64,000 bases of DNA from Thalassococcus arenae (GTDB lineage Bacteria; Pseudomonadota; Alphaproteobacteria; Rhodobacterales; Rhodobacteraceae), in the NCBI RefSeq assembly GCF_019104745.1, contig NZ_JAHRWL010000003.1, forward strand, positions 124,001-188,000. Direction: 5' to 3'. A program made the translations under genes and the position numbers. Under the pieces are notes generated by a model that worked only from the letters and a program-made list of their open reading frames with translations, had not been told where the DNA came from and made no database searches. Numbering within the stretch: position 1 is the stretch's first letter; every line of letters begins with the position of its first letter. Shown piece after piece: positions 48,110-63,752 of this stretch.

Positions 48110-48679
48110 TCAGCCCTCGGCCTGCCAGGCCTGTGCGGTCTGCGGTGCGATCCGCAGCAGATCGACCGCGCGGGCGGCGATCTGGCGGCAGATGGCCTGC
48201 GTGGTTTCGGGCCGCAGGTAAAAAGCCGGCACCGGCGGCAGCACCACGGCACCCATCTCGGTCACGGCGGTCATGTTGCGCAGATGCGCCAGCGTCAGCG
48301 GCGCCTCGCGCGCCAGCAGGATCAGCTTGCGCCGTTCCTTGAGCTGCACGCCGGCGGCACGCGTCAACAGGTTGTCGTCCAGCCCGGACGCGATCGCCGC
48401 AAGCGACCGCATGGAACAGGGCGCGACGATCATGCCGGCCACGGGATGCGAACCGGACGCGATGGTGGCGCCCAGGTCGCGGATGTCATGCACCCTGTCG
48501 GCCAGTGCAGCCAGTTCGGCAAAGGCCCTTTCGCCGACTTCGTGGGCCAGCGTGCGTTCCGCCATGGGCGACACGGTCAGGTCGACGGCGATGCCCGTGT
48601 CATGCAACAGCCGTGCGGCTTCGACCGCCAGCGCCGCGCCCGACGCGCCAGAGACACCCAGGATCACGCGCGGTGTCAT
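48110..48679 (-). CDS. ubiX: UbiX, flavin prenyltransferase
   Basis: A 189-residue UbiX/Pad1 protein: N-terminal Gly-Val-Ser-Gly-Ala-Ser-Gly-Ala flavin-binding motif and Ala-Pro-Cys-Ser-Met-Arg-Ser. UbiX makes prenylated FMN, the cofactor of UbiD. The ATG at 48679 overlaps the ubiD stop by 4 nt, so the pair is made together. In this place UbiX serves the decarboxylation step of ubiquinone synthesis. Confidence 0.93.
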   Translation of the reverse strand: MTPRVILGVSGASGAALAVEAARLLHDTGIAVDLTVSPMAERTLAHEVGERAFAELAALADRVHDIRDLGATIASGSHPVAGMIVAPCSMRSLAAIASGLDDNLLTRAAGVQLKERRKLILLAREAPLTLAHLRNMTAVTEMGAVVLPPVPAFYLRPETTQAICRQIAARAVDLLRIAPQTAQAWQAEG

Positions 48680-50172
48680 TCCGCCGCCTTCCGCCACGCC
48701 GCGTCCAGCAGGGCCGCGGCCCGTGCTTCGTGCGCCGGGTCCGGCGCCATGACCTGCCCCCAGGCGCGGTCGGTCTCGGCGCCGATCTTGGTGGTCGCGT
48801 CCAGCCCCAGTTTGCCCGACAACCCTTCGCGGGCCGAGGCGAAGTCGAGGTAGTCCATCGGCGTGTCCGACAACTGCACCAGGTCGCGGCCCGGATCCAT
48901 CCGGGTGGAAACCGCCCACATCACGTCGTCCCAGGATCGCACGTCGATGTCGTCATCCACCACGACGATCATCTTGGTGTAGCTGAATTGCGGCAGCATC
49001 CCCCATAGCGCCATCATCACCCGCCGCGCCTGGCCCGGGTAACGCTTGTCGATCGACACGATCGCGACGCGGTAGGAACAGGCGGCGGGCGGCAGCCAGA
49101 GATCGCGGATTTCGGGGATCTGGCCCCGGATCAGCGGCAGCGACAGGCGGTTGAACACCTCGCCGATCACCGACGGTTCGTCGGGTGGACGCCCGGTGGC
49201 GGTGGACAGGTACAGCGGGTCGCGGCGATGGGTGATCGCGCTGACACGCATCACCGGAAAGTTCTCGACCGCGTTATAGTATCCGGTGTGGTCGCCGAAC
49301 GGGCCCTCGGGCGCGACCTCGCCCGGGTGGACCCAGCCTTCGACCACGATCTCGGCCCTTGCCGGCACCATCAGCGGGACGGTCCGCGCCGGCACCAGTT
49401 CGGCCCGGGTGCCGCGCAACACGCCGCTGAAAGACAGCTCCGACACCGTCTCGGGCAATGGCAGAGCGGCCGACAGCAGCAGCGCCGGATCGGCACCAAG
49501 CGCCAGGGCGACCGGCATCGCCGCGGCCGCGCGCGCCCAGGTTCGGGCATGGGCCGCGCCGCCGCGATGCGCCAGCCAGCGCAGGATCAGCCGGTCGGCT
49601 CCCAGAACCTGCGCGCGGTAGACACCCAGGTTGTAGACATGCGCGGCGCCGGGATCGGTGCCATGCGCGCGGGTCATCACCACGGGCCAGGTGATCAGCG
49701 GACCGGCATCGCCGGGCCAGGGCGTCTGGACCGGCAGCGCGGTCAGGTCGGTCTCGGCCATGACCTCCTGCACGGGGGCGCGGCGCAACACCTGCGGCCG
49801 GGTCGCCAGCGCCGCCTTGAGCATCGGCCAACGCGCCAGTGCATCCCGCAAACCGCCGACCGGCGCAGGCGTGCGCAGCGCGGCCAGGAAGGCGCCCAGG
49901 TCGTCGATCTCGTCCGGGCTTCGCCCAAGGCCCGCGGCGACCCGCGTCCGGGTTCCGAACAGGTTGGCGACGACCGGCATTCCGGCGCGCCTGTCGCCCT
50001 GCCGCGCCGCGTCGAATCGCAGGGCCGGGCCGCCACGGCGCAGCGCGGCCATCTGCACGGCGGTCATCTCGTGCTTCAGATCCACGGGGTCGGAGAGGCG
50101 CAGCAGGTCGCCTTGGCTGTCCAGCCAGCCCAGGAAGGCGCGCAGATCGGGAAAGGCGGGCAGATGGCGCAT
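48676..50172 (-). CDS. ubiD: UbiD, prenylated-FMN-dependent decarboxylase
   Basis: A 498-residue UbiD-family decarboxylase with the characteristic Glu-Gly-Pro-Phe-Gly-Asp-His-Thr-Gly-Tyr-Tyr motif. The probable reaction is decarboxylation of 3-polyprenyl-4-hydroxybenzoate. The length equals that of E. coli UbiD. It diverges from ubiT; the only clear control element in the 117-bp gap is a perfect FNR/Nnr-type box 52 nt from this start codon. Confidence 0.92.
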   Translation of the reverse strand: MRHLPAFPDLRAFLGWLDSQGDLLRLSDPVDLKHEMTAVQMAALRRGGPALRFDAARQGDRRAGMPVVANLFGTRTRVAAGLGRSPDEIDDLGAFLAALRTPAPVGGLRDALARWPMLKAALATRPQVLRRAPVQEVMAETDLTALPVQTPWPGDAGPLITWPVVMTRAHGTDPGAAHVYNLGVYRAQVLGADRLILRWLAHRGGAAHARTWARAAAAMPVALALGADPALLLSAALPLPETVSELSFSGVLRGTRAELVPARTVPLMVPARAEIVVEGWVHPGEVAPEGPFGDHTGYYNAVENFPVMRVSAITHRRDPLYLSTATGRPPDEPSVIGEVFNRLSLPLIRGQIPEIRDLWLPPAACSYRVAIVSIDKRYPGQARRVMMALWGMLPQFSYTKMIVVVDDDIDVRSWDDVMWAVSTRMDPGRDLVQLSDTPMDYLDFASAREGLSGKLGLDATTKIGAETDRAWGQVMAPDPAHEARAAALLDAAWRKAAE

Positions 50173-50223
50173 GGCGGCCTCCGAAAGACACGACCCGCTC
50201 TATCAGCGCAAAAGCGCAATCCG

Positions 50224-50239
50224 TTTGACTATAGTCAAA
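50224..50239. promoter_or_regulatory. FNR/Nnr-type box shared by ubiD-ubiX and ubiTUV
   Basis: TTTGACTATAGTCAAA is a perfect 16-bp palindrome containing TTGAC-N4-GTCAA (50225-50238). It lies 52 nt from the ubiD start and 51 nt from the ubiT start, almost exactly midway between the divergent genes. Confidence 0.85.
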
Positions 50240-50289
50240 TGCGGCAGCGCGGCAGCGGCGTATGCCTTCGGCAATTCAGCGAGAGCGCC

Positions 50290-50832
50290 ATGCCGACGTC
50301 CCTGCCAGAGTTTCCCCGCGCGGTTCAACGCCTGATACGACCCCTGCCCCTGTTGCCGCTGTCGCGGCTTCTGACCGGGCTCAGCCGCCGGGTGGCGCGA
50401 CGCCATCCCGGGCTGTTCGCGCGGCTTGGGCCGCATGCGAAGGCACGCTTCCTGCTGGTGCTGACCGATCAACTCTTCCGACTGTTGCTGGAGCCCCTGC
50501 CTCAAGCGCCGCGCATCACCGCGTTGCGTCCCGCCGCCACGCCTGCGCATGACGCCTGCATAACCGGTCCGACGGCGGCGTTTCTCGGCATGATGCACGG
50601 CACGCTGGACGGCGATGCGCTGTTCTTCTCGCGCGACCTCGCGGTCGAGGGCGACACGGCCGCGGTGCTGGCCTTGCGCAACGCGCTGGACGATGCCGAA
50701 CTGGACCTGTCCGAGGAAATCGGTCTGACCGGACGTCCGGGACAGCTCTTGCGTGCGGCCTTCGGCGCGGTCGAACGCGGCACCGGCCTGCCCCTGCGAC
50801 GCCACGTCCCCAGCCAAGGACCCCTGTCATGA
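50290..50832 (+). CDS. ubiT: UbiT, SCP2-domain accessory factor of anaerobic ubiquinone synthesis
   Basis: A 180-residue SCP2 (sterol carrier-like) protein; the Ile-Thr-Gly-Pro-Thr-Ala-Ala-Phe-Leu and Leu-Phe-Phe-Ser-Arg-Asp-Leu segments are typical of UbiT (YhbT). UbiT binds prenylated quinone intermediates for the oxygen-independent pathway. It is the first gene of ubiTUV, with its stop overlapping the ubiU ATG. The start at 50290 is the only good ATG after the FNR-type box. Confidence 0.88.
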   Translation: MPTSLPEFPRAVQRLIRPLPLLPLSRLLTGLSRRVARRHPGLFARLGPHAKARFLLVLTDQLFRLLLEPLPQAPRITALRPAATPAHDACITGPTAAFLGMMHGTLDGDALFFSRDLAVEGDTAAVLALRNALDDAELDLSEEIGLTGRPGQLLRAAFGAVERGTGLPLRRHVPSQGPLS

Positions 50833-51809
50833 TGGAACTGGTCTGCCCCGCCGGCACGCCCGCCGCGCTGCGCACCGCCGTGACGGCCGGTGCGCAGGCG
50901 GTCTATTGCGGCTTTGCCGACGAAACCAACGCCCGCAACTTTCCGGGGCTGAATTTCAGCCGCGCCGAACTGGACGAGGCGATCGACTTTGCCCATACTC
51001 GCGGTGCCAAGGTGCTGGTGGCGATCAACACCTTTCCCCGCGCCGGTGCCGAAACGCTGTGGCACCAGGCGGTCGCCGATGCCGATACGCTGGGTGCGGA
51101 TGCGGTGATCCTGGCCGATCTTGGCCTGATCGCCTACGCCGCCGACCGCCATCCCGACCTGCGCCGCCACCTGTCCGTGCAGGCCGCCGCCGCCAACCCC
51201 GATGCGGTCAACTTTTATGCCGACACGTTCGGCATCCGCCGCGTGGTTCTGCCGCGGGTCCTGACGGTCGACGAGATCCGCGCGATCAATTCCGAGATCG
51301 ACATCGAGACCGAGGTTTTCGTGTTCGGCGGGCTGTGCGTCATGGCCGAAGGGCGTTGTTCGCTGTCGTCCTACGCCACCGGCCTGTCGCCCAACATGAA
51401 TGGCGTCTGTTCGCCCGCCAGTCACGTGGCCTATGCCGAGGAAGGCCCGGAACTGGTCGCCCGGCTGGGCGGTTTCACCATTCATCGCACCCCCAGAGAC
51501 CGGTCTGCGCCCTACCCGACCTTGTGCAAGGGCTGTTTCACGTCGGGGCCGCAGACCGGTCATGTATTCGAAGACCCGGTTAGCCTGGATGCGACCGACC
51601 TGATCCCGGCGCTGGCCAAGGCGGGCGTCACCGCTCTCAAGATCGAGGGCCGCCAGCGCAGCCGGGCCTATGTGGAAAAGGTCGTGCGCGCCTTCCGAAC
51701 AGCGGTCGAGGCCGAAGCGCGTGGCGATGCCCCGCCCAAGGCGGCGCTGGCCGCGCTGGCCGAAGGGCAGGCCGCCACGACCGGCGCATATGCCAAGATC
51801 TGGAGATGA
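50829..51809 (+). CDS. ubiU: UbiU, U32-family Fe-S hydroxylase component
   Basis: A 326-residue peptidase-U32-like protein. The four cluster cysteines are present at 170, 177, 194 and 233; the spacing matches E. coli UbiU (169, 176, 193, 232). UbiU with UbiV hydroxylates the ubiquinone ring without oxygen, using prephenate as oxygen donor in E. coli. The ATG overlaps the ubiT stop and the stop overlaps the ubiV ATG. Confidence 0.95.
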   Translation: MMELVCPAGTPAALRTAVTAGAQAVYCGFADETNARNFPGLNFSRAELDEAIDFAHTRGAKVLVAINTFPRAGAETLWHQAVADADTLGADAVILADLGLIAYAADRHPDLRRHLSVQAAAANPDAVNFYADTFGIRRVVLPRVLTVDEIRAINSEIDIETEVFVFGGLCVMAEGRCSLSSYATGLSPNMNGVCSPASHVAYAEEGPELVARLGGFTIHRTPRDRSAPYPTLCKGCFTSGPQTGHVFEDPVSLDATDLIPALAKAGVTALKIEGRQRSRAYVEKVVRAFRTAVEAEARGDAPPKAALAALAEGQAATTGAYAKIWR

Positions 51810-52711
51810 CCGGCATGGATCTGACCGTCGGGGCCAACCCGTATTTCTGGGATACCGATCGCGTCTGCGCCTTCTACGGCGATCTGGCCGCCGCGCCGGT
51901 GGCGCGCGTGGTCGTGGGCGAACAGGTCTGTTCCAAACGCCTGCCGCTCTGGCAGGACGCCCTGCCCGACGCGATCGAGGCGCTGACCGCGGCGGGCAAG
52001 ACCGTGGCCCTGACCTCGCTGGCGCTGATCACGCTGAAGCGCGAACGCAAGATGACGGCGCAGCTTTTCGAAACCGGGTTGGTGGTCGAGATCAACGACC
52101 TGTCCGCGCTGCGCCACCTGCCCGAGGGCCGGGAATTCTGGGTCGGGCCGCTGGTGAATGTCTACAACGAAGGCACCTTGCGCTGGCTGGCCCTGCAAGG
52201 CGCTACACGCATTTGCCTGCCGCCGGAACTGCCGCTGTCATCGGTCGCGCGGCTGGCGGAAGCCGGGCGCGAGTTGGGGGTCGCCATCGAGGTCTGGGGG
52301 TTCGGCCGCCTGCCGCTGGCCATAGCGGGGCGCTGCTATCACGCGCGGCTACACGACCGGCCCAAGGACAATTGCCAATTCGTCTGTGGCGATGATCCGG
52401 ACGGGCGCGATGTCGATACGCTGGACGGCCAGCGCTTTCTGACGGTGAACGGCGTGCAGACATTGTCGCAAGCCAGCGCCAGCGCGGCCTACCAGGTCGA
52501 GGCGTTGCAGGAGGCCGGCGTCGCGGCGCTGCGCCTGTCGCCGCAATCGACGGAATTCGTCGCGATCTGCGGCGATTACGCGGCGCGCCTGTCGGGCTCG
52601 ATGACGGCCGACGCGCTGGCCGAAAGCCTGGCCGCCAAAGTGCCCGGCGGGCAGCTGGCGGACGGGTTCCTGACCGGACCCAGCGGCGCCCACTGGTCGC
52701 GGGCGGGCTGA
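51806..52711 (+). CDS. ubiV: UbiV, U32-family Fe-S hydroxylase component
   Basis: A 301-residue U32-like partner of UbiU. Cysteines 42, 177, 190 and 194 reproduce the E. coli UbiV cluster ligands in spacing (x12 and x3 in the C-terminal trio). The UbiUV heterodimer carries two 4Fe-4S clusters. The ATG at 51806 overlaps the ubiU stop. Its stop is 2 nt from the convergent DUF2478 gene. Confidence 0.95.
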   Translation: MTGMDLTVGANPYFWDTDRVCAFYGDLAAAPVARVVVGEQVCSKRLPLWQDALPDAIEALTAAGKTVALTSLALITLKRERKMTAQLFETGLVVEINDLSALRHLPEGREFWVGPLVNVYNEGTLRWLALQGATRICLPPELPLSSVARLAEAGRELGVAIEVWGFGRLPLAIAGRCYHARLHDRPKDNCQFVCGDDPDGRDVDTLDGQRFLTVNGVQTLSQASASAAYQVEALQEAGVAALRLSPQSTEFVAICGDYAARLSGSMTADALAESLAAKVPGGQLADGFLTGPSGAHWSRAG

Positions 52712-52713
52712 GC

Positions 52714-53235
52714 TCAGGCGACGTCCTGCGCGGTGGCGCGGCTGCGTGCCAGCCAGTCGGCAAGCGCGTCCAGATCGGCGGGCACCTGTTCGGCCAGCCC
52801 CCCGGCAAAGGCCTGGAACGCCGCGGCGTTCAGACCGTTCAACCCCACCACCACGGGCACATCCAGCGCGTGGGCCTCGGCGATCAGGTCGCGAAAGCCC
52901 TTGCCCTCGGCCTCGTGCTTGCCGAACTTGTTGACGATCAGCACGGCGCTGTCGCCGCTCAGGCGGCGTTCGACCTCGAGCACGGCACTTTCCAGCGCCG
53001 CGGGGTTCAGCGCACAGCCCGTCGCCTCGGGGCCGAGATCCTGGCTGATGCGGATCACCGGGCCATCCGGCAGCACGCGGACATCCATGTCGCAGCGATG
53101 CGATTTCGGACGCGGCGTGTTGGTCTGCACGATCCCGGTCACCGCGACGCCATCGGCAAGGCAGCGTTCGGCAAAGGCGGCAAGCAACTTGTCGACCGCT
53201 CCGCGGTCCTCGCTGCTGACATAGGCAAATCCCAT
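52714..53235 (-). CDS. DUF2478-family protein beside moeA
   Basis: A 173-residue protein resembling DUF2478, a family with a NTPase-like alpha/beta fold found near molybdenum and nitrogen-oxide genes. Visible elements: Phe-Ala-Tyr-Val-Ser N-terminal strand, a His-Arg-Cys-Asp-Met segment, and Ala-Val-Leu-Ile-Val-Asn-Lys-Phe-Gly-Lys. The start is the ATG at 53235 (AGGAGG at 5 nt), overlapping the moeA stop; a GTG one codon earlier is possible. Its role is unknown, perhaps in molybdopterin or denitrification enzyme maturation. Confidence 0.78.
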   Translation of the reverse strand: MGFAYVSSEDRGAVDKLLAAFAERCLADGVAVTGIVQTNTPRPKSHRCDMDVRVLPDGPVIRISQDLGPEATGCALNPAALESAVLEVERRLSGDSAVLIVNKFGKHEAEGKGFRDLIAEAHALDVPVVVGLNGLNAAAFQAFAGGLAEQVPADLDALADWLARSRATAQDVA

Positions 53236-54518
53236 CACATCCTCCTTGGTCCCGCGGCGCCGATCGGCAGGAATTCCAGCAGATCGCCACGATGCAGGAT
53301 ATCCGCATCCGCCGGGATCAGAACAAGACCATCGGCAGAAAGCAATTGCGACATTCGGGCACTTTCGGTTCGGGGCTGACAGTGAACGATTTCCATCCCA
53401 TCGCTGTCATAACCCTCGATCCGGGCGGGGCGGTATTCGCAACGCCCGGGTTTGTGGGTGATGCCCTGGGCGGCGCGGACATGGCGTCGCGCGGTCGACG
53501 CGCCGCGTTCGCCTGCCAGACGGGCCAGAACCGACCGGCCGAACAGGTGCCAGGTGACATAGGCCGACATCGGGTTGCCCGGCAAACCGAGAACCGGCGT
53601 GCCGTCAAGCATCGCCAGAGTGATCGGCTTGCCCGGCTTGATCGCGACGCCGGAAAACACGGTTCTCGCGGCCAGGGCGGCCAGCGCCGGCCTGACATGG
53701 TCGCGCTCGCCGACCGATACGCCACCGGACGTCACCACCAGATCGGTCTTGGCCGCTGCTTCGGAAATCGCCTGGATCAGCGCCTGTCGGCAATCGTCGA
53801 CATGCCGGACGACCGCGACCCGTCCTCCGGCTTCGGTGATGGCGGCGGCGAGCATGGGCGCGTTGACATCCCAGATCGCGCCGCTGCCCAGGGTCTCGCC
53901 CGCCGGGCGCACCTCGTCGCCGGTCAGCAGCAAGGCGACATCCGGCGCGCGGCGCACCGCGACCCGACCGGCACCGGCCGCGGCGCAGACGCCGATGGCG
54001 CGTGCGTCCAGCCGGGTGCCCGCCGAAAGCAGGATCGTTCCGCATTTCCGATCTTCGCCGCGACGGCGGATGTTCTGGCCCGGCCGGACCTGGCCGTCGA
54101 TGTCGATCCGGTCTCCGATGCGACGCACCTGTTCCTGCATCACCACCGTGTCGGCGCCCGCCGGAACCGGCGCGCCGGTATTGATGCGCATCGCGGAACC
54201 AGGGGTCAGGCGACCGACGGGCGCTCCGGCGCAGGCTTCGCCCAACACGGGCAATCCGGCACCGTTGGGCAGATCGCCCGCCCGCAGCGCATAGCCATCC
54301 ATGCCCGAATTGTCGAAGCGTGGCAGATCGGTCGCGGCAGCGACGTCACGGGCCAATACGCGCCCCAAGGCGGCCCCGAGCGGGATCGTTTCGATCTGGA
54401 TCAGCGGCGCGACCGCCGCGCGCAGCCGGTCGGTCGCTTCGGATACCGACAACAACGGCTGCGCGTGATCCGCCTCGCAGCCGCAGGCCGCCGTTTCGAT
54501 CCGATCCAACAAGACCAT
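53235..54518 (-). CDS. moeA: MoeA, molybdopterin molybdenumtransferase
   Basis: A 427-residue MoeA: Phe-Asp-Asn-Ser-Gly-Met-Asp-Gly-Tyr-Ala in the N-terminal part, Ile-Asn-Thr-Gly-Ala-Pro-Val-Pro, Thr-Ser-Gly-Gly-Val-Ser-Val-Gly and Gly-Leu-Pro-Gly-Asn-Pro are all canonical. It inserts molybdenum into molybdopterin, needed for example by nitrate reductase. A Cys-Gly-Cys stretch near the N-terminus is unusual. It overlaps the DUF2478 gene. An FNR-type box lies 79 nt upstream. Confidence 0.93.
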   Translation of the reverse strand: MVLLDRIETAACGCEADHAQPLLSVSEATDRLRAAVAPLIQIETIPLGAALGRVLARDVAAATDLPRFDNSGMDGYALRAGDLPNGAGLPVLGEACAGAPVGRLTPGSAMRINTGAPVPAGADTVVMQEQVRRIGDRIDIDGQVRPGQNIRRRGEDRKCGTILLSAGTRLDARAIGVCAAAGAGRVAVRRAPDVALLLTGDEVRPAGETLGSGAIWDVNAPMLAAAITEAGGRVAVVRHVDDCRQALIQAISEAAAKTDLVVTSGGVSVGERDHVRPALAALAARTVFSGVAIKPGKPITLAMLDGTPVLGLPGNPMSAYVTWHLFGRSVLARLAGERGASTARRHVRAAQGITHKPGRCEYRPARIEGYDSDGMEIVHCQPRTESARMSQLLSADGLVLIPADADILHRGDLLEFLPIGAAGPRRM

Positions 54519-54597: not shown

Positions 54598-54611
54598 TTG
54601 ATTTGGGTCAA
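54598..54611. promoter_or_regulatory. FNR/Nnr-type box between moeA and Crp/Fnr regulator
   Basis: TTGAT-TTGG-GTCAA, one base off a perfect palindrome, 79 nt upstream of moeA and 156 nt upstream of the regulator gene on the other strand. The position suits regulation of either gene. Confidence 0.7.
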
Positions 54612-54767: not shown

Positions 54768-55472
54768 ATGTATCTGGGCTTGCCCGAAAGCGAGTTCGAC
54801 GGCTTGCGCACCCTTCCGCCCCTTTCGGGGCTGCAGGATGGCAATTTCGAACGCCTGTTCGCGGATGCGACATTGCAAAGCTGCACGGCGCAGATCGTTC
54901 TTCTGACCGAGGGCGCGCCGCCGGACCACCTGTTCATCCTGGTCTCGGGCGCGGTCGAACTGTTCGCGCAATGGCAGGACCGCGAAACCACGATGGAGGT
55001 GCTGCGTTCGCCCGCCTGTTTCTTTCTTGCCGAAACCGTGTCCGGCGCGGATTGCCTGATGTCGGCCCGCACGCTGGAACCGACCCGCATGATCCTCGTC
55101 CCTGTCGAAGCGGTGCACGCGATCCTCGCCGAAGATGCCGGCTTTGTCCGTGCAGTCGCCGCGGAACTGGCCGACCGGGTGCAGTTGTCGGTGCGGGCGA
55201 CGAAGAACCTCAAGATGCGGACATCTCTGGAACGCTTGGCGAATTTCATCCTCAGCCTGCAGGACATGGCCGATGGACGCACATGGATCGAACTGCCGAC
55301 GGAAAAGCGCAAGCTGGCCTCGCAACTCGGAATGACGCCGGAAAACCTGAGCCGCGCCCTCAAGGGCCTCCAGGCCTATGGCGTCAAGGTCGACGGCGGG
55401 CGCGTTTCGGTATCGAACCGCGATGAATTGGCGAAATTCGCGAAACCGCATCCCTTGATCGACCGGCGGTGA
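54768..55472 (+). CDS. Crp/Fnr-family regulator (Nnr/Dnr-like, no Fnr cysteine cluster)
   Basis: A 234-residue regulator: cyclic-nucleotide-binding-like sensor domain (about 20-140), long dimer helix, and a C-terminal helix-turn-helix (about 180-200, Leu-Ala-Ser-Gln-Leu-Gly-Met-Thr-Pro-Glu-Asn-Leu-Ser-Arg). The N-terminal four-cysteine pattern of oxygen-sensing Fnr is absent, which fits the Dnr/Nnr nitric-oxide-responsive group. It is followed at once by an NnrU gene and is near the nor operon. Start ATG 54768 has AAGGGGA upstream. Confidence 0.85.
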   Translation: MYLGLPESEFDGLRTLPPLSGLQDGNFERLFADATLQSCTAQIVLLTEGAPPDHLFILVSGAVELFAQWQDRETTMEVLRSPACFFLAETVSGADCLMSARTLEPTRMILVPVEAVHAILAEDAGFVRAVAAELADRVQLSVRATKNLKMRTSLERLANFILSLQDMADGRTWIELPTEKRKLASQLGMTPENLSRALKGLQAYGVKVDGGRVSVSNRDELAKFAKPHPLIDRR

Positions 55473-57430: not shown

Positions 57431-57444
57431 TTGACTATCGTCAA
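57431..57444. promoter_or_regulatory. FNR/Nnr-type box between hemA and Crp/Fnr regulator
   Basis: TTGAC-TATC-GTCAA, perfect arms, 55 nt from the hemA start and 126 nt from the regulator start on the other strand. It differs from the ubi box at one spacer base. Confidence 0.85.
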
Positions 57445-57570
57445 GAGACGCAGGGCCTGCGGGAATTTGACCGATGGCCATGGCGGCGGCACGGCGTAAT
57501 GGTATTGTGACAAAAAGAAATCACCGAGTCGGCGGCCGTGCCGTCGATGCCTGTTCTGGGGGATCAAACA

Positions 57571-58278
57571 GTGTCGAACCCGAAGCGCGAGGCGATCGCG
57601 CGCAAGTCGCTGCTGCTCAGCGCCTTGCCGCCAGAAATGACCGATGCCCTGATCGCCAAGTCCGGCAGCCGCAAGGTCGGCCGGGGCGAGACGATCTTTC
57701 TTCACGGCGAAAGGGCCAGCGCGATCTACATCGTGCTCGAAGGCTGGGTGAAACTGTACCGCATCGCGCCGAACGGAAACGAAGCGGTGGTGGCGGTCAT
57801 GACCCAGGGCCAGAGCTTTGGCGAAGCGGTCGCGCTGCAGCGCCTGCCGTTCCCGGTGTCGTCCGAGGCGGTCACCGACGCCGAGATCATGAGCATCGAG
57901 ACCAGCCATTTCCGCGCCGCGATCCAGGAGCATCCGGAAATGGCGCTGTCGGTCCTTGGCGGGGCCTATGCGCACCTGCACCGGCTGGTGACGGAAATCG
58001 AAGATCTCAAGGCGCGCACCGGGGCGCAGCGGGTGGCAGAATTCCTGCTTGACCTGTGCAACGTCGACGAAGGCGGCTGCATGGTCACCCTGCCCTATGA
58101 CAAGGTGCTGATCGCCGGACGCCTGGGCATGAAGCCCGAAAGCCTGAGCCGCGCCTTCGCCAAGCTGCGCAGCGTCGGTGTGCGGGTGCAAAAGGCCCAT
58201 GCCGTCATCGAAAAGGTCGAGGCCCTGCGCGCCTATGCCGAGGAAGATCCGGCCAATGCCTGGAGCAAGGCACTGTGA
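57571..58278 (+). CDS. Crp/Fnr-family regulator, second
   Basis: A 235-residue regulator with a cyclic-nucleotide-binding-type domain (Glu-Thr-Ile-Phe-Leu-His-Gly-Glu, Gly-Gln-Ser-Phe-Gly-Glu) and a C-terminal helix-turn-helix ([14 protein letters not shown]). No Fnr-type N-terminal cysteines. The likely start is GTG 57571, 8 nt after GGGGGA; ATG 57547 or GTG 57538 would add 8 or 11 residues. It overlaps the DUF4202 gene (GTGA) and faces the nor operon. A denitrification regulator of the Dnr type is likely. Confidence 0.85.
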
Positions 58279-61575: not shown

Positions 61576-62391
61576 TCACCCGTAGATTGCCGTGACAAGA
61601 TCGTGGAGCCCGCGTTTGATGTCCGCCTCGTCGGTCAGCGGCTCGATCATCGCCGCCGATATCGCGCGTTCGATATCCATGCCGCCGGCGATCAGCGTGG
61701 CGGCGTAGACAACGAGGCGGGTGGACACACCTTCCTCCAGGTCCTGTCCCTTGAGCGCGCGCAGCTTGCCGGCCAGGCGCACCAGCGGCGCGACCTTGGC
61801 TTCCGACAGCCCGCTTTCCTCGGCCACGATGCGGGTTTCCGCCTCGGGCTTGGGAAAGTCGAACTCCATCGCGACGAACCGCTGCCGGGTCGAGGGTTTC
61901 AGGGTCTTGAGGATGTTCTGGTAACCGGGGTTGTAGGACGCCACCAGCATGAAGCCGGGCGCGGCGTGCAGTTCCTCTCCGGTGCGGTCGATGGGCAGGA
62001 TGCGGCGGTCATCGGTCAGCGGGTGCAGCACCACGGTGACGTCCTTGCGCGCTTCGACCACCTCGTCGAGATAACAGATCGCGCCTTCGCGGACGGCGCG
62101 CGTCAGCGGGCCATCGACCCAGACGGTCTCGCCCCCTTTCAGCAGGTAACGCCCGATCAGGTCTGCCGCCGACAGATCGTCATGGCAGGCGACGGTGTAG
62201 AGAGGGCGGTTCAGGCGTGCGGCCATATGGGCCACGAAGCGGGTCTTGCCGCAGCCCGTCGGGCCCTTGAGCAGAACCGGCAGGTCCTGTGCGGCGGCGG
62301 CCTCGAACAGGGCGACCTCATCGCCCTGGGCGAGGTAGAAGGGGGCGTCGGCCCCCTTCTGCTTGGCGAACGTGCCGTCCACGGGGCTCAC
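61576..62391 (-). CDS. norQ: NorQ, MoxR-type AAA ATPase
   Basis: A 271-residue MoxR-family AAA+ ATPase: Walker A Gly43-Pro-Thr-Gly-Cys-Gly-Lys-Thr50, Walker B Cys-Tyr-Leu-Asp-Glu, sensor segment Ala-Ser-Tyr-Asn-Pro-Gly. It assembles with NorD to activate nitric oxide reductase. It overlaps norB by 4 nt. Confidence 0.95.
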
Positions 62392-63752
62392 TCCGCGGCC
62401 ACGGTCGCGTCGGTCGAGATGATCTCGCGACGCGGGATGGCAAGAGAGTAGATGAGCACCAGCACACCCAGCAGGACAACGATGCCCGAGCCGAGGCGCA
62501 TCCAGTAGAACAGCGCCAGCGCGTCCTGGACGTCCATGAAGTAGTCACCCACCACACGCTGCATGTGCGTCTGCACGGTGCCGGCGAAGGTCAGGGTGAA
62601 GGTCATGAACACCATGCCGCTGGTGATCAGCCAGAACGAGGCCATGTTCAGCACCTGGTTGTACGGATCCCGGTTGCGCAGGATCGGCATCGCATAGGTG
62701 AAGATGGCGATGTTCAGGCAGACATAGGCACCGTAGAAGGCCAGGTGGCCGTGGGCCGCGGTGATCTGCGTGCCGTGGGTATAGTAGTTCACCCCGTGCA
62801 GCGTGTGCAGGAAGCCCCAGACACCGGCACCAAAGAAGGCCAGCGTGGCGCAACCCAGCGACCACAGCAGCGCGGCCTTGTTGGGATGGTCCCGGCGGCC
62901 CTTCCAGACCATGACGAAGGCAAAGGCCATCATGGCGAAGAACGGCACCACTTCGAGGCTCGAGAAGATCGACCCGATCCACTGCCAGTAACCGGGCGTG
63001 CCGATCCAGTAGTAGTGGTGTCCGGTGCCGAGAATGCCCGAGAACAGCGCCGCGGCGACGATCACGTAAAGCCATTTCTCGACGACCTCGCGGTCGACGC
63101 CGGTCAGCTTGAGCATCAGGTAGGCCAGGATCGAGGCCATCACCAGTTCCCAGGTGCCTTCCACCCACAGGTGGACGATGTACCACCAGTATTGCTTGTC
63201 CAGCGCCAGGTTGGACGGGTTGTAGAAGCTGAACAGGAACAGCAGCGACAAACCCCAGAGACCCAGCAGCAGGATGTTGGTGATCGCGGTCTTCTTGCCC
63301 TTAAGCACCGTCATCGAGACGTTGTAGAGGAACAGAAGCGCGGCCACGACGATGCCGGCCTTGACCCATTTCGGCTGCTCGATGAACTCGCGGCCTTCCT
63401 TGCCCAGCAGCCAGTTGCCTTCGAACAGGTTGAAGAGATAGGTCACAACCACGCCCAGCGTGCCGACCACGAGGATCAGCAGTTGCAGGTAGGCGATCTT
63501 GGTCGAGTGGATCTCGCGCTCGGCCTCTTCCGGAACCAGGAAATAGGCCGCGCCGAAGAAGCCCAGCAGCAGCCAGACGATCAGCGAGTTGGTGTGCAGC
63601 ATCCGAAGGATGTTGAAGGGCACCAGTTCGGACAGGAAGTTCGGGTTGACGTAGACATACCCGATCAGAAGCCCGCCCAGAATCTGGATCGCGAACAAGG
63701 CCAGCGCGACCGAGAAATAGGCCAGCGCGATTTTTTGCGACTCGTATTTCAT
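62388..63752 (-). CDS. norB: NorB, nitric oxide reductase catalytic subunit
   Basis: A 454-residue, 12-helix haem-copper-oxidase-like subunit of cNOR, reducing 2 NO to N2O. His-Leu-Trp-Val-Glu-Gly-Thr-Trp-Glu contains the conserved His/Glu of the non-haem iron site, and His-His-Tyr-Tyr-Trp-Ile-Gly follows. His-Gly-His-Leu-Ala-Phe-Tyr-Gly is also present. It starts 15 nt after norC. Confidence 0.97.

Follow-up and report, generated by a model that had tools for sequence, protein, structure and literature searches.

The window, by which we mean the whole 64-kb stretch of DNA analysed here, carries two divergent sets of ubiquinone genes, ubiD-ubiX on the minus strand and ubiTUV on the plus strand, and the 117-bp gap between them (50173-50289) holds one perfect 16-bp palindrome, TTTGACTATAGTCAAA, the sole one in that gap. 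This raises the question of whether a single regulatory site controls both a decarboxylase pair and the proteins of oxygen-independent hydroxylation, and to which signal such a site responds. We conclude that one site very probably turns on both gene sets, and that the palindrome is likely a shared class-II FNR/Dnr-type site serving ubiD-ubiX and ubiTUV as a low-oxygen switch. An earlier, sequence-only reading of the locus had linked the module to denitrification; it is partly supported, its core being sound and its emphasis on denitrification too narrow. The same layout was mapped in Rhodobacter sphaeroides in 2010 (PMC2908626), and the window adds one more example of it.

Genes and palindrome in the ubiD-ubiT gap

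The identities proposed earlier for the five flanking genes were borne out by NCBIfam models (Table 1). UbiT, UbiU and UbiV, encoded by three adjacent genes, pass equivalog cut-offs, and UbiD and UbiX pass subfamily cut-offs only (528.9 bits for UbiD vs an equivalog cut-off of 788; the ubiX model scan used 48110-48688, which adds three extra residues). Because neighbouring genes overlap by four bases (ubiU with ubiT, ubiV with ubiU, and the ubiX ATG with the ubiD stop), each side of the gap reads as a single operon. All of the cluster cysteines that had been noted in UbiU and UbiV are present, four in each protein (C170, C177, C194 and C233 in UbiU; C42, C177, C190 and C194 in UbiV), and all are invariant in 81/81 sequences. 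On the basis of the E. coli work, we take these cysteines to be the cluster ligands. An E. coli UbiU C176A mutant has been described.

Table 1. Positions of the genes and predicted regulatory elements in the window
Feature	Position	Strand	Basis and remarks
ubiX, flavin prenyltransferase	48110..48679	-	NCBIfam; ATG at 48679, 4-base overlap with ubiD stop
ubiD, UbiD-family decarboxylase	48676..50172	-	TIGR00148, 449.9 bits, cut-off 244.85
Predicted -10 of ubiD promoter, TAGAGC	50197..50202	-	Extended -10 TG at 50205-50204; start predicted near 50190 (-41.5 rule)
16-bp palindrome, predicted FNR/Dnr-type activator site common to both promoters	50224..50239	.	Centre between 50231 and 50232
Predicted -10 of ubiT promoter, TATGCC	50261..50266	+	Start predicted near 50273
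ubiT, SCP2-type accessory factor of O2-independent ubiquinone synthesis	50290..50832	+	NCBIfam, 67.9 bits, cut-off 46.9
ubiU, U32-family Fe-S protein of O2-independent hydroxylation	50829..51809	+	NCBIfam and cysteines
ubiV, U32-family Fe-S protein of O2-independent hydroxylation	51806..52711	+	NCBIfam and cysteines
CRP/FNR-type regulator, Dnr-like	54768..55472	+	FtrB model, 257.3 bits, over cut-off 211; possible regulator of the site (putative role)
CRP/FNR-type regulator, Dnr-like	57538..58278	+	FtrB model, 115.2 bits, below cut-off 211; possible regulator of the site (putative role)

The palindrome had been described as a single perfect copy midway between the two gene sets, which is what we see, at a distance of 52 nt from ubiD and 51 nt from ubiT. 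These distances are correct for the 14-bp core (50225-50238), whereas for the 16-mer itself they are 51 nt (ubiD) and 50 nt (ubiT). The core reads TTGAC-N4-GTCAA and is two mismatches away from TTGAT-N4-ATCAA, the classical FNR consensus (PMC5398030), from which it differs in that both half-sites are TTGAC/GTCAA.

Conservation of the box and candidate regulators

A UbiU search yielded 80 named loci, mostly from Rhodobacteraceae with some from Stappia, Roseibium and Hoeflea, which are the nearest relatives of the window UbiU and include near-duplicates. In 74 of them ubiD is divergent from ubiT across a measurable gap, and these, together with the window, make up a set of 75 gaps; left out were two loci on contigs cut near ubiT (L062, L064), three with no ubiD in the locus (L088, L097, L121) and one with an odd predicted start (L124). 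The relaxed motif TTGAY-N4-RTCAA is perfect in 67 of the 75 gaps and occurs with one mismatch in six, two in one and three in one, leaving two gaps (L087, L102) without a good box. In a resampled control, a perfect site was present in 9 of 15000 gaps. One locus, L049, has two perfect boxes rather than one in its 157-bp ubiD-ubiT gap, a variant in which each side might own a separate site.

Eight proteins of the window's genome pass the HTH_Crp_2 cut-off. Among them is an FnrL ortholog (464 bits vs a cut-off of 300) that carries a cysteine cluster near its N terminus. Besides the two Dnr-like regulators of the window, the genome encodes a third FtrB-like (Dnr-like) one at C1:589111 (104.7 bits, cut-off 211). 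Two further boxes in the window adjoin Dnr-like regulator genes, one at 54598-54611 next to moeA and another at 57431-57444 next to hemA; the latter, one base off the ubi box in the 14-bp core, is placed between hemA and the regulator gene as in Dinoroseobacter shibae (PMC5398030).

We then asked how closely the switch is bound to denitrification, since the strictest form of that link would have only NO-responsive Dnr/Nnr-type regulators acting at the box, and not FnrL. Several local features are in keeping with this: both half-sites are TTGAC/GTCAA, two Dnr-like regulators are encoded 4-8 kb from the box, norB lies at 62388-63752, and the exact TTGAC-N4-GTCAA motif, found at 11 places in the 3.7-Mb genome (0 for a reversed control pattern), occurs four times within a norB-containing 22.6-kb part of contig C3. 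Published work points the same way, as homologues of UbiT and UbiU are predicted in the DNR regulon of Alphaproteobacteria, a sterol-binding/U32 pair of Bradyrhizobium that looks like ubiT-ubiU is NnrR-dependent, and nirS/nosR2 of D. shibae depends mainly on DnrD (PMC5398030). None of six ubi-related terms occurs in the main text of Rodionov 2005 (PMC1274295). However, the box is not confined to genomes with a nitric oxide reductase. A norB search covered 49 genomes (those of 50 loci out of the 80, less L115). In 42 there was a match, one of them weak at 34% identity, and 6 of the 7 genomes without a match keep the box (L059, L060, L061, L107, L113 and L088), the seventh, L124, being without a measurable gap. 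Hence, the switch looks like a low-oxygen response common to denitrifiers and others. The presence of the FnrL ortholog and the reported binding of FnrL and CrpK in Rhodobacter likewise tell against a tie to denitrification in particular, and we consider control by NO-responsive regulators alone improbable. An extra NO-responsive (Dnr-type) input is nevertheless likely in this genome, to judge from the nearness of norB and from the half-sites. The genome also encodes a bchP/chlP-type geranylgeranyl reductase (L021, G000:C1:1269038; 519.4 bits, cut-off 343.3), which suggests that this nor-cluster organism is a phototroph as well.

Promoter geometry on the two sides of the box

Aligning on the box centre the 73 gaps whose box has one mismatch or none (effective number 60) showed that, outside the box, no feature on either side is more strongly conserved than a TA dinucleotide 29.5/30.5 bp from the centre. 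TA at 29.5 bp is present on the ubiT side in 65/73 gaps, on the ubiD side in 71/73 and on both sides in 65/73; over the rest of the range 12.5-59.5 bp, no offset gives TA on both sides in any gap (0/73). The TA at 29.5 bp is absent from one or both sides in eight gaps, including two in which the ubiD-side TA is missing despite the presence of ubiD (L090, L117). The window itself has TA at this distance on both sides (TATGCC toward ubiT, TAGAGC toward ubiD), and the hemA box at 57431 has it on neither. With a -10 element starting 29.5 bp away, the box centre falls at -41.5, where class-II sites of CRP/FNR promoters lie, so that the box would be at -41.5 of both predicted promoters. We met no description of this symmetric -41.5/-41.5 geometry of the ubiD-ubiT gap in the literature searched, which was not queried for the geometry itself and leaves most subscription journals outside.

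An extended -10 TG accompanies the ubiD-side element in 60/73 gaps and the ubiT-side element in 5/73. This one-sidedness could mean that the box drives ubiTUV only and that the extended -10 promoter of ubiD-ubiX works largely on its own, as might also be read from R. capsulatus, in which FnrL binds at ubiD with no differential expression reported in the fnrL comparison (PMC4634722) and ubiD is expressed with oxygen (PMC10626278). Against this, the ubiD-side TA sits at exactly 29.5 bp in nearly all gaps, a spacing tied to the box. Four loci that have no ubiD beside ubiT (L088, L097, L121, L146) keep the box and the ubiT-side TA in 4/4 cases and have no ubiD-side TA in 4/4, although L146 retains the TG; L088 and L097 are both from Roseibium, and the four loci are thus not four independent cases. 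That the ubiD-side element goes with ubiD argues that the box serves both sides.

Data from relatives bear on the same point. In R. sphaeroides, FnrL ChIP-chip together with a sigma-70 peak marks the gap between RSP0466-0464 and RSP0467-0468, and both units are activated (PMC2908626); CrpK ChIP-seq found the same gap bound, with both units scored '+' (PMC4263372). In Hyphomicrobium denitrificans, ubiXDTUV transcripts drop together in regulator mutants (PMC12423496). A box restricted to ubiTUV is accordingly a quite improbable explanation, and the earlier proposal of one site for both units stands on box conservation, the TA footprint and the R. sphaeroides ChIP-chip data. Strict control of ubiD is another matter, and the unchanged ubiD of R. 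capsulatus, together with a rise of only about twofold in ubiD/ubiX during phototrophy in that species, speaks against it. As for a chance palindrome without function, we found no point in its support and reject it as next to impossible, given the conservation in homologous gaps, the genome count and the three TTGAY-N4-RTCAA sites in the window (50225, 54598, 57431) vs a mean of 0.06 over 100 order-1 resamplings, none of which gave more than 1.

For the shared site, we infer a mechanism in which both directions would depend on the box. An FNR/Dnr-type dimer would bind the palindrome, centred 41.5 bp upstream of both predicted starts, and as oxygen falls (sensed by FnrL; here probably also NO, via a Dnr-like regulator) the dimer would recruit RNA polymerase. 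The cell would then make the oxygen-independent decarboxylase pair and the oxygen-independent hydroxylation proteins, a set that would stand in under anaerobic conditions for the oxygen-using UbiN-type decarboxylative hydroxylase and UbiH/UbiL-type hydroxylases. The extended -10 (TG), on the ubiD promoter alone, may allow some activator-independent expression. It is conceivable, if on balance rather doubtful, that the symmetric site acts as an allocator: a bound dimer would serve no more than one of the two opposed class-II promoters at any moment, alternating between them, and the ubiD-only extended -10 would set both the ratio of decarboxylase to hydroxylation proteins and an oxic leak.

A decarboxylase pair probably dedicated to anaerobic synthesis

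The pair had been proposed to be dedicated to anaerobic synthesis, and a second, aerobic ubiD/ubiX had been named as the thing to look for. The search gave a divided answer. UbiD has one match over cut-off in the window's genome and, apart from it, one weak and lone UbiD-like gene (L002, G000:C1:21025; 463 aa, 125.7 bits vs a cut-off of 244.85); a second UbiX-family gene does score over cut-off (L029, C1:48472), and its 3.5-kb locus holds no UbiD. L029 and L002 lie 27 kb apart on contig C1. Coq4 was rejected as the aerobic decarboxylase, the genome being without a PF05019 match. Two UbiH-family monooxygenases (L017, L018) are encoded, along with a salicylate-hydroxylase-like monooxygenase, L019, which falls below the cut-off of every model listed and is, by resemblance only, a candidate for UbiN, the aerobic decarboxylase.

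Of 296 genomes of the same family, one per genus, searched at E of at most 1e-60, 62 have UbiU, 35 have UbiD and 282 have an L019-like protein, for which the best match may be something other than an ortholog. UbiD and UbiU occur together in 32 of the 35 UbiD genomes (Fisher p 2.6e-22; the genera are related, and p is a guide only). The three genomes with UbiD and without UbiU are G384, G492 and G349. The first two belong to a set of 14 genomes in which L019 has no match. The other 12 of these 14 are also without UbiD, so that the complement between UbiD and L019-like proteins is incomplete. In G349 the UbiD match is in two pieces, and no UbiTUV match was found in the 12 kb fetched; that locus (L147, G349:C1:1578000-1590000), which pairs a UbiX match with the split UbiD match, is perhaps a decaying remnant of the ubiquinone module. 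By identity to the window UbiU, the UbiU genomes form two groups, one of 34 family genomes at >=70% (that is, at least 70%), 32 of them with UbiD, and one of 28 at 54-59%, none with a UbiD match.

In the class at large the association is looser. In a sample of 289 Alphaproteobacteria genomes, UbiD is present in 130, of which 102 are without UbiU, and UbiU in 34, of which 6 are without UbiD. We thus reject an anaerobic-only UbiD throughout Alphaproteobacteria, and the 102 genomes make anaerobic dedication a matter of the window's family. For that family, published R. capsulatus mutants weigh most: strains without ubiD-X or ubiU-V grow with oxygen and not without it, and UbiN is needed with oxygen (PMC10626278). 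The same paper describes ubiD as expressed and functional both with and without oxygen (PMC10626278). Together with the one UbiD over cut-off and the co-occurrence in the family, the mutants support the view of a pair dedicated to anaerobic synthesis.

Comparison with known systems

Binding to the gap, activation of both units and anaerobic-only mutant phenotypes have been established in relatives by others. To this we add that the geometry is symmetric, at -41.5 on each side, that the extended -10 is one-sided, that loci without ubiD also lack the ubiD-side element, and that UbiD and UbiU co-occur across the family. Separately published results (FnrL binding and activation, the division of labour between UbiN and UbiD, and the UbiTUV pathway) are thereby brought together as a single conserved switch for anaerobic ubiquinone synthesis.

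The closest likeness is in R. sphaeroides, where ubiD and ubiTUV-type genes flank a single TTGATgtagGTCAA site that is bound in vivo (PMC2908626, PMC4263372). That site has a TTGAT half-site on one side, whereas the window has TTGAC/GTCAA beside a nor cluster; the R. sphaeroides setting is phototrophic growth, and the functions of RSP0466-0464 were not yet known at the time (PMC2908626). The R. capsulatus FnrL site, TTGATCAATATCAA (PMC4634722), is the site seen in L057 and L060. R. capsulatus differs in that no FnrL-dependent change in ubiD was seen there (PMC4634722), and the equation of its UbiN with L019 is by resemblance only. H. denitrificans has the same five genes together (ubiXDTUV), with a single ubiD and ubiX, co-regulated with denitrification, but control there runs via sHdrR and SoxR, and no shared FNR site is described in the available text (PMC12423496).

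Bidirectional use of one site is known from D. shibae, where single FnrL/Dnr sites serve nirS/nosR2 and hemA3/dnrE at about -41.5/-39.5, and where FnrL and three Dnr regulators resemble the set in the window's genome (PMC5398030). The genes concerned are those of denitrification and haem, not ubiquinone, and box mutation was assayed in the nirS direction only (PMC5398030). In E. coli, Fnr likewise activates the oxygen-independent ubiquinone genes ubiUV/ubiT, but through two Fnr sites (F1, F2), and ubiD and ubiX serve the aerobic pathway too (PMC10470549).

UbiTUV loci without UbiD

The co-occurrence survey further brings out genera that have UbiTUV but no UbiD match; the UbiN paper points to the same gap in Rhodovulum and Rhodomicrobium (PMC10626278). 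Given 28 genera with the second UbiU type and no UbiD match, another oxygen-independent decarboxylase may serve them. In the 18 UbiD-less loci of this type that we fetched (L128-L145), ubiT, ubiU and ubiV lie together in 18/18; upstream of ubiT, a box with no more than one mismatch is present in eight of them, six of which also have TA at 29.5 bp. Nine neighbour proteins, from 5 of 20 fetched loci, were scanned for a decarboxylase beside UbiD-less UbiTUV and included nothing convincing; they comprised DUF2478 four times, a hemerythrin, and UPF0047, sigma-70, NrdR-like and RibD-like proteins. DUF2478 genes near ubiT in L130, L137, L141 and L144 recall the DUF2478 gene near ubiV in the window (52714-53238, minus strand), which overlaps moeA and faces ubiV, and may point to a hidden link.
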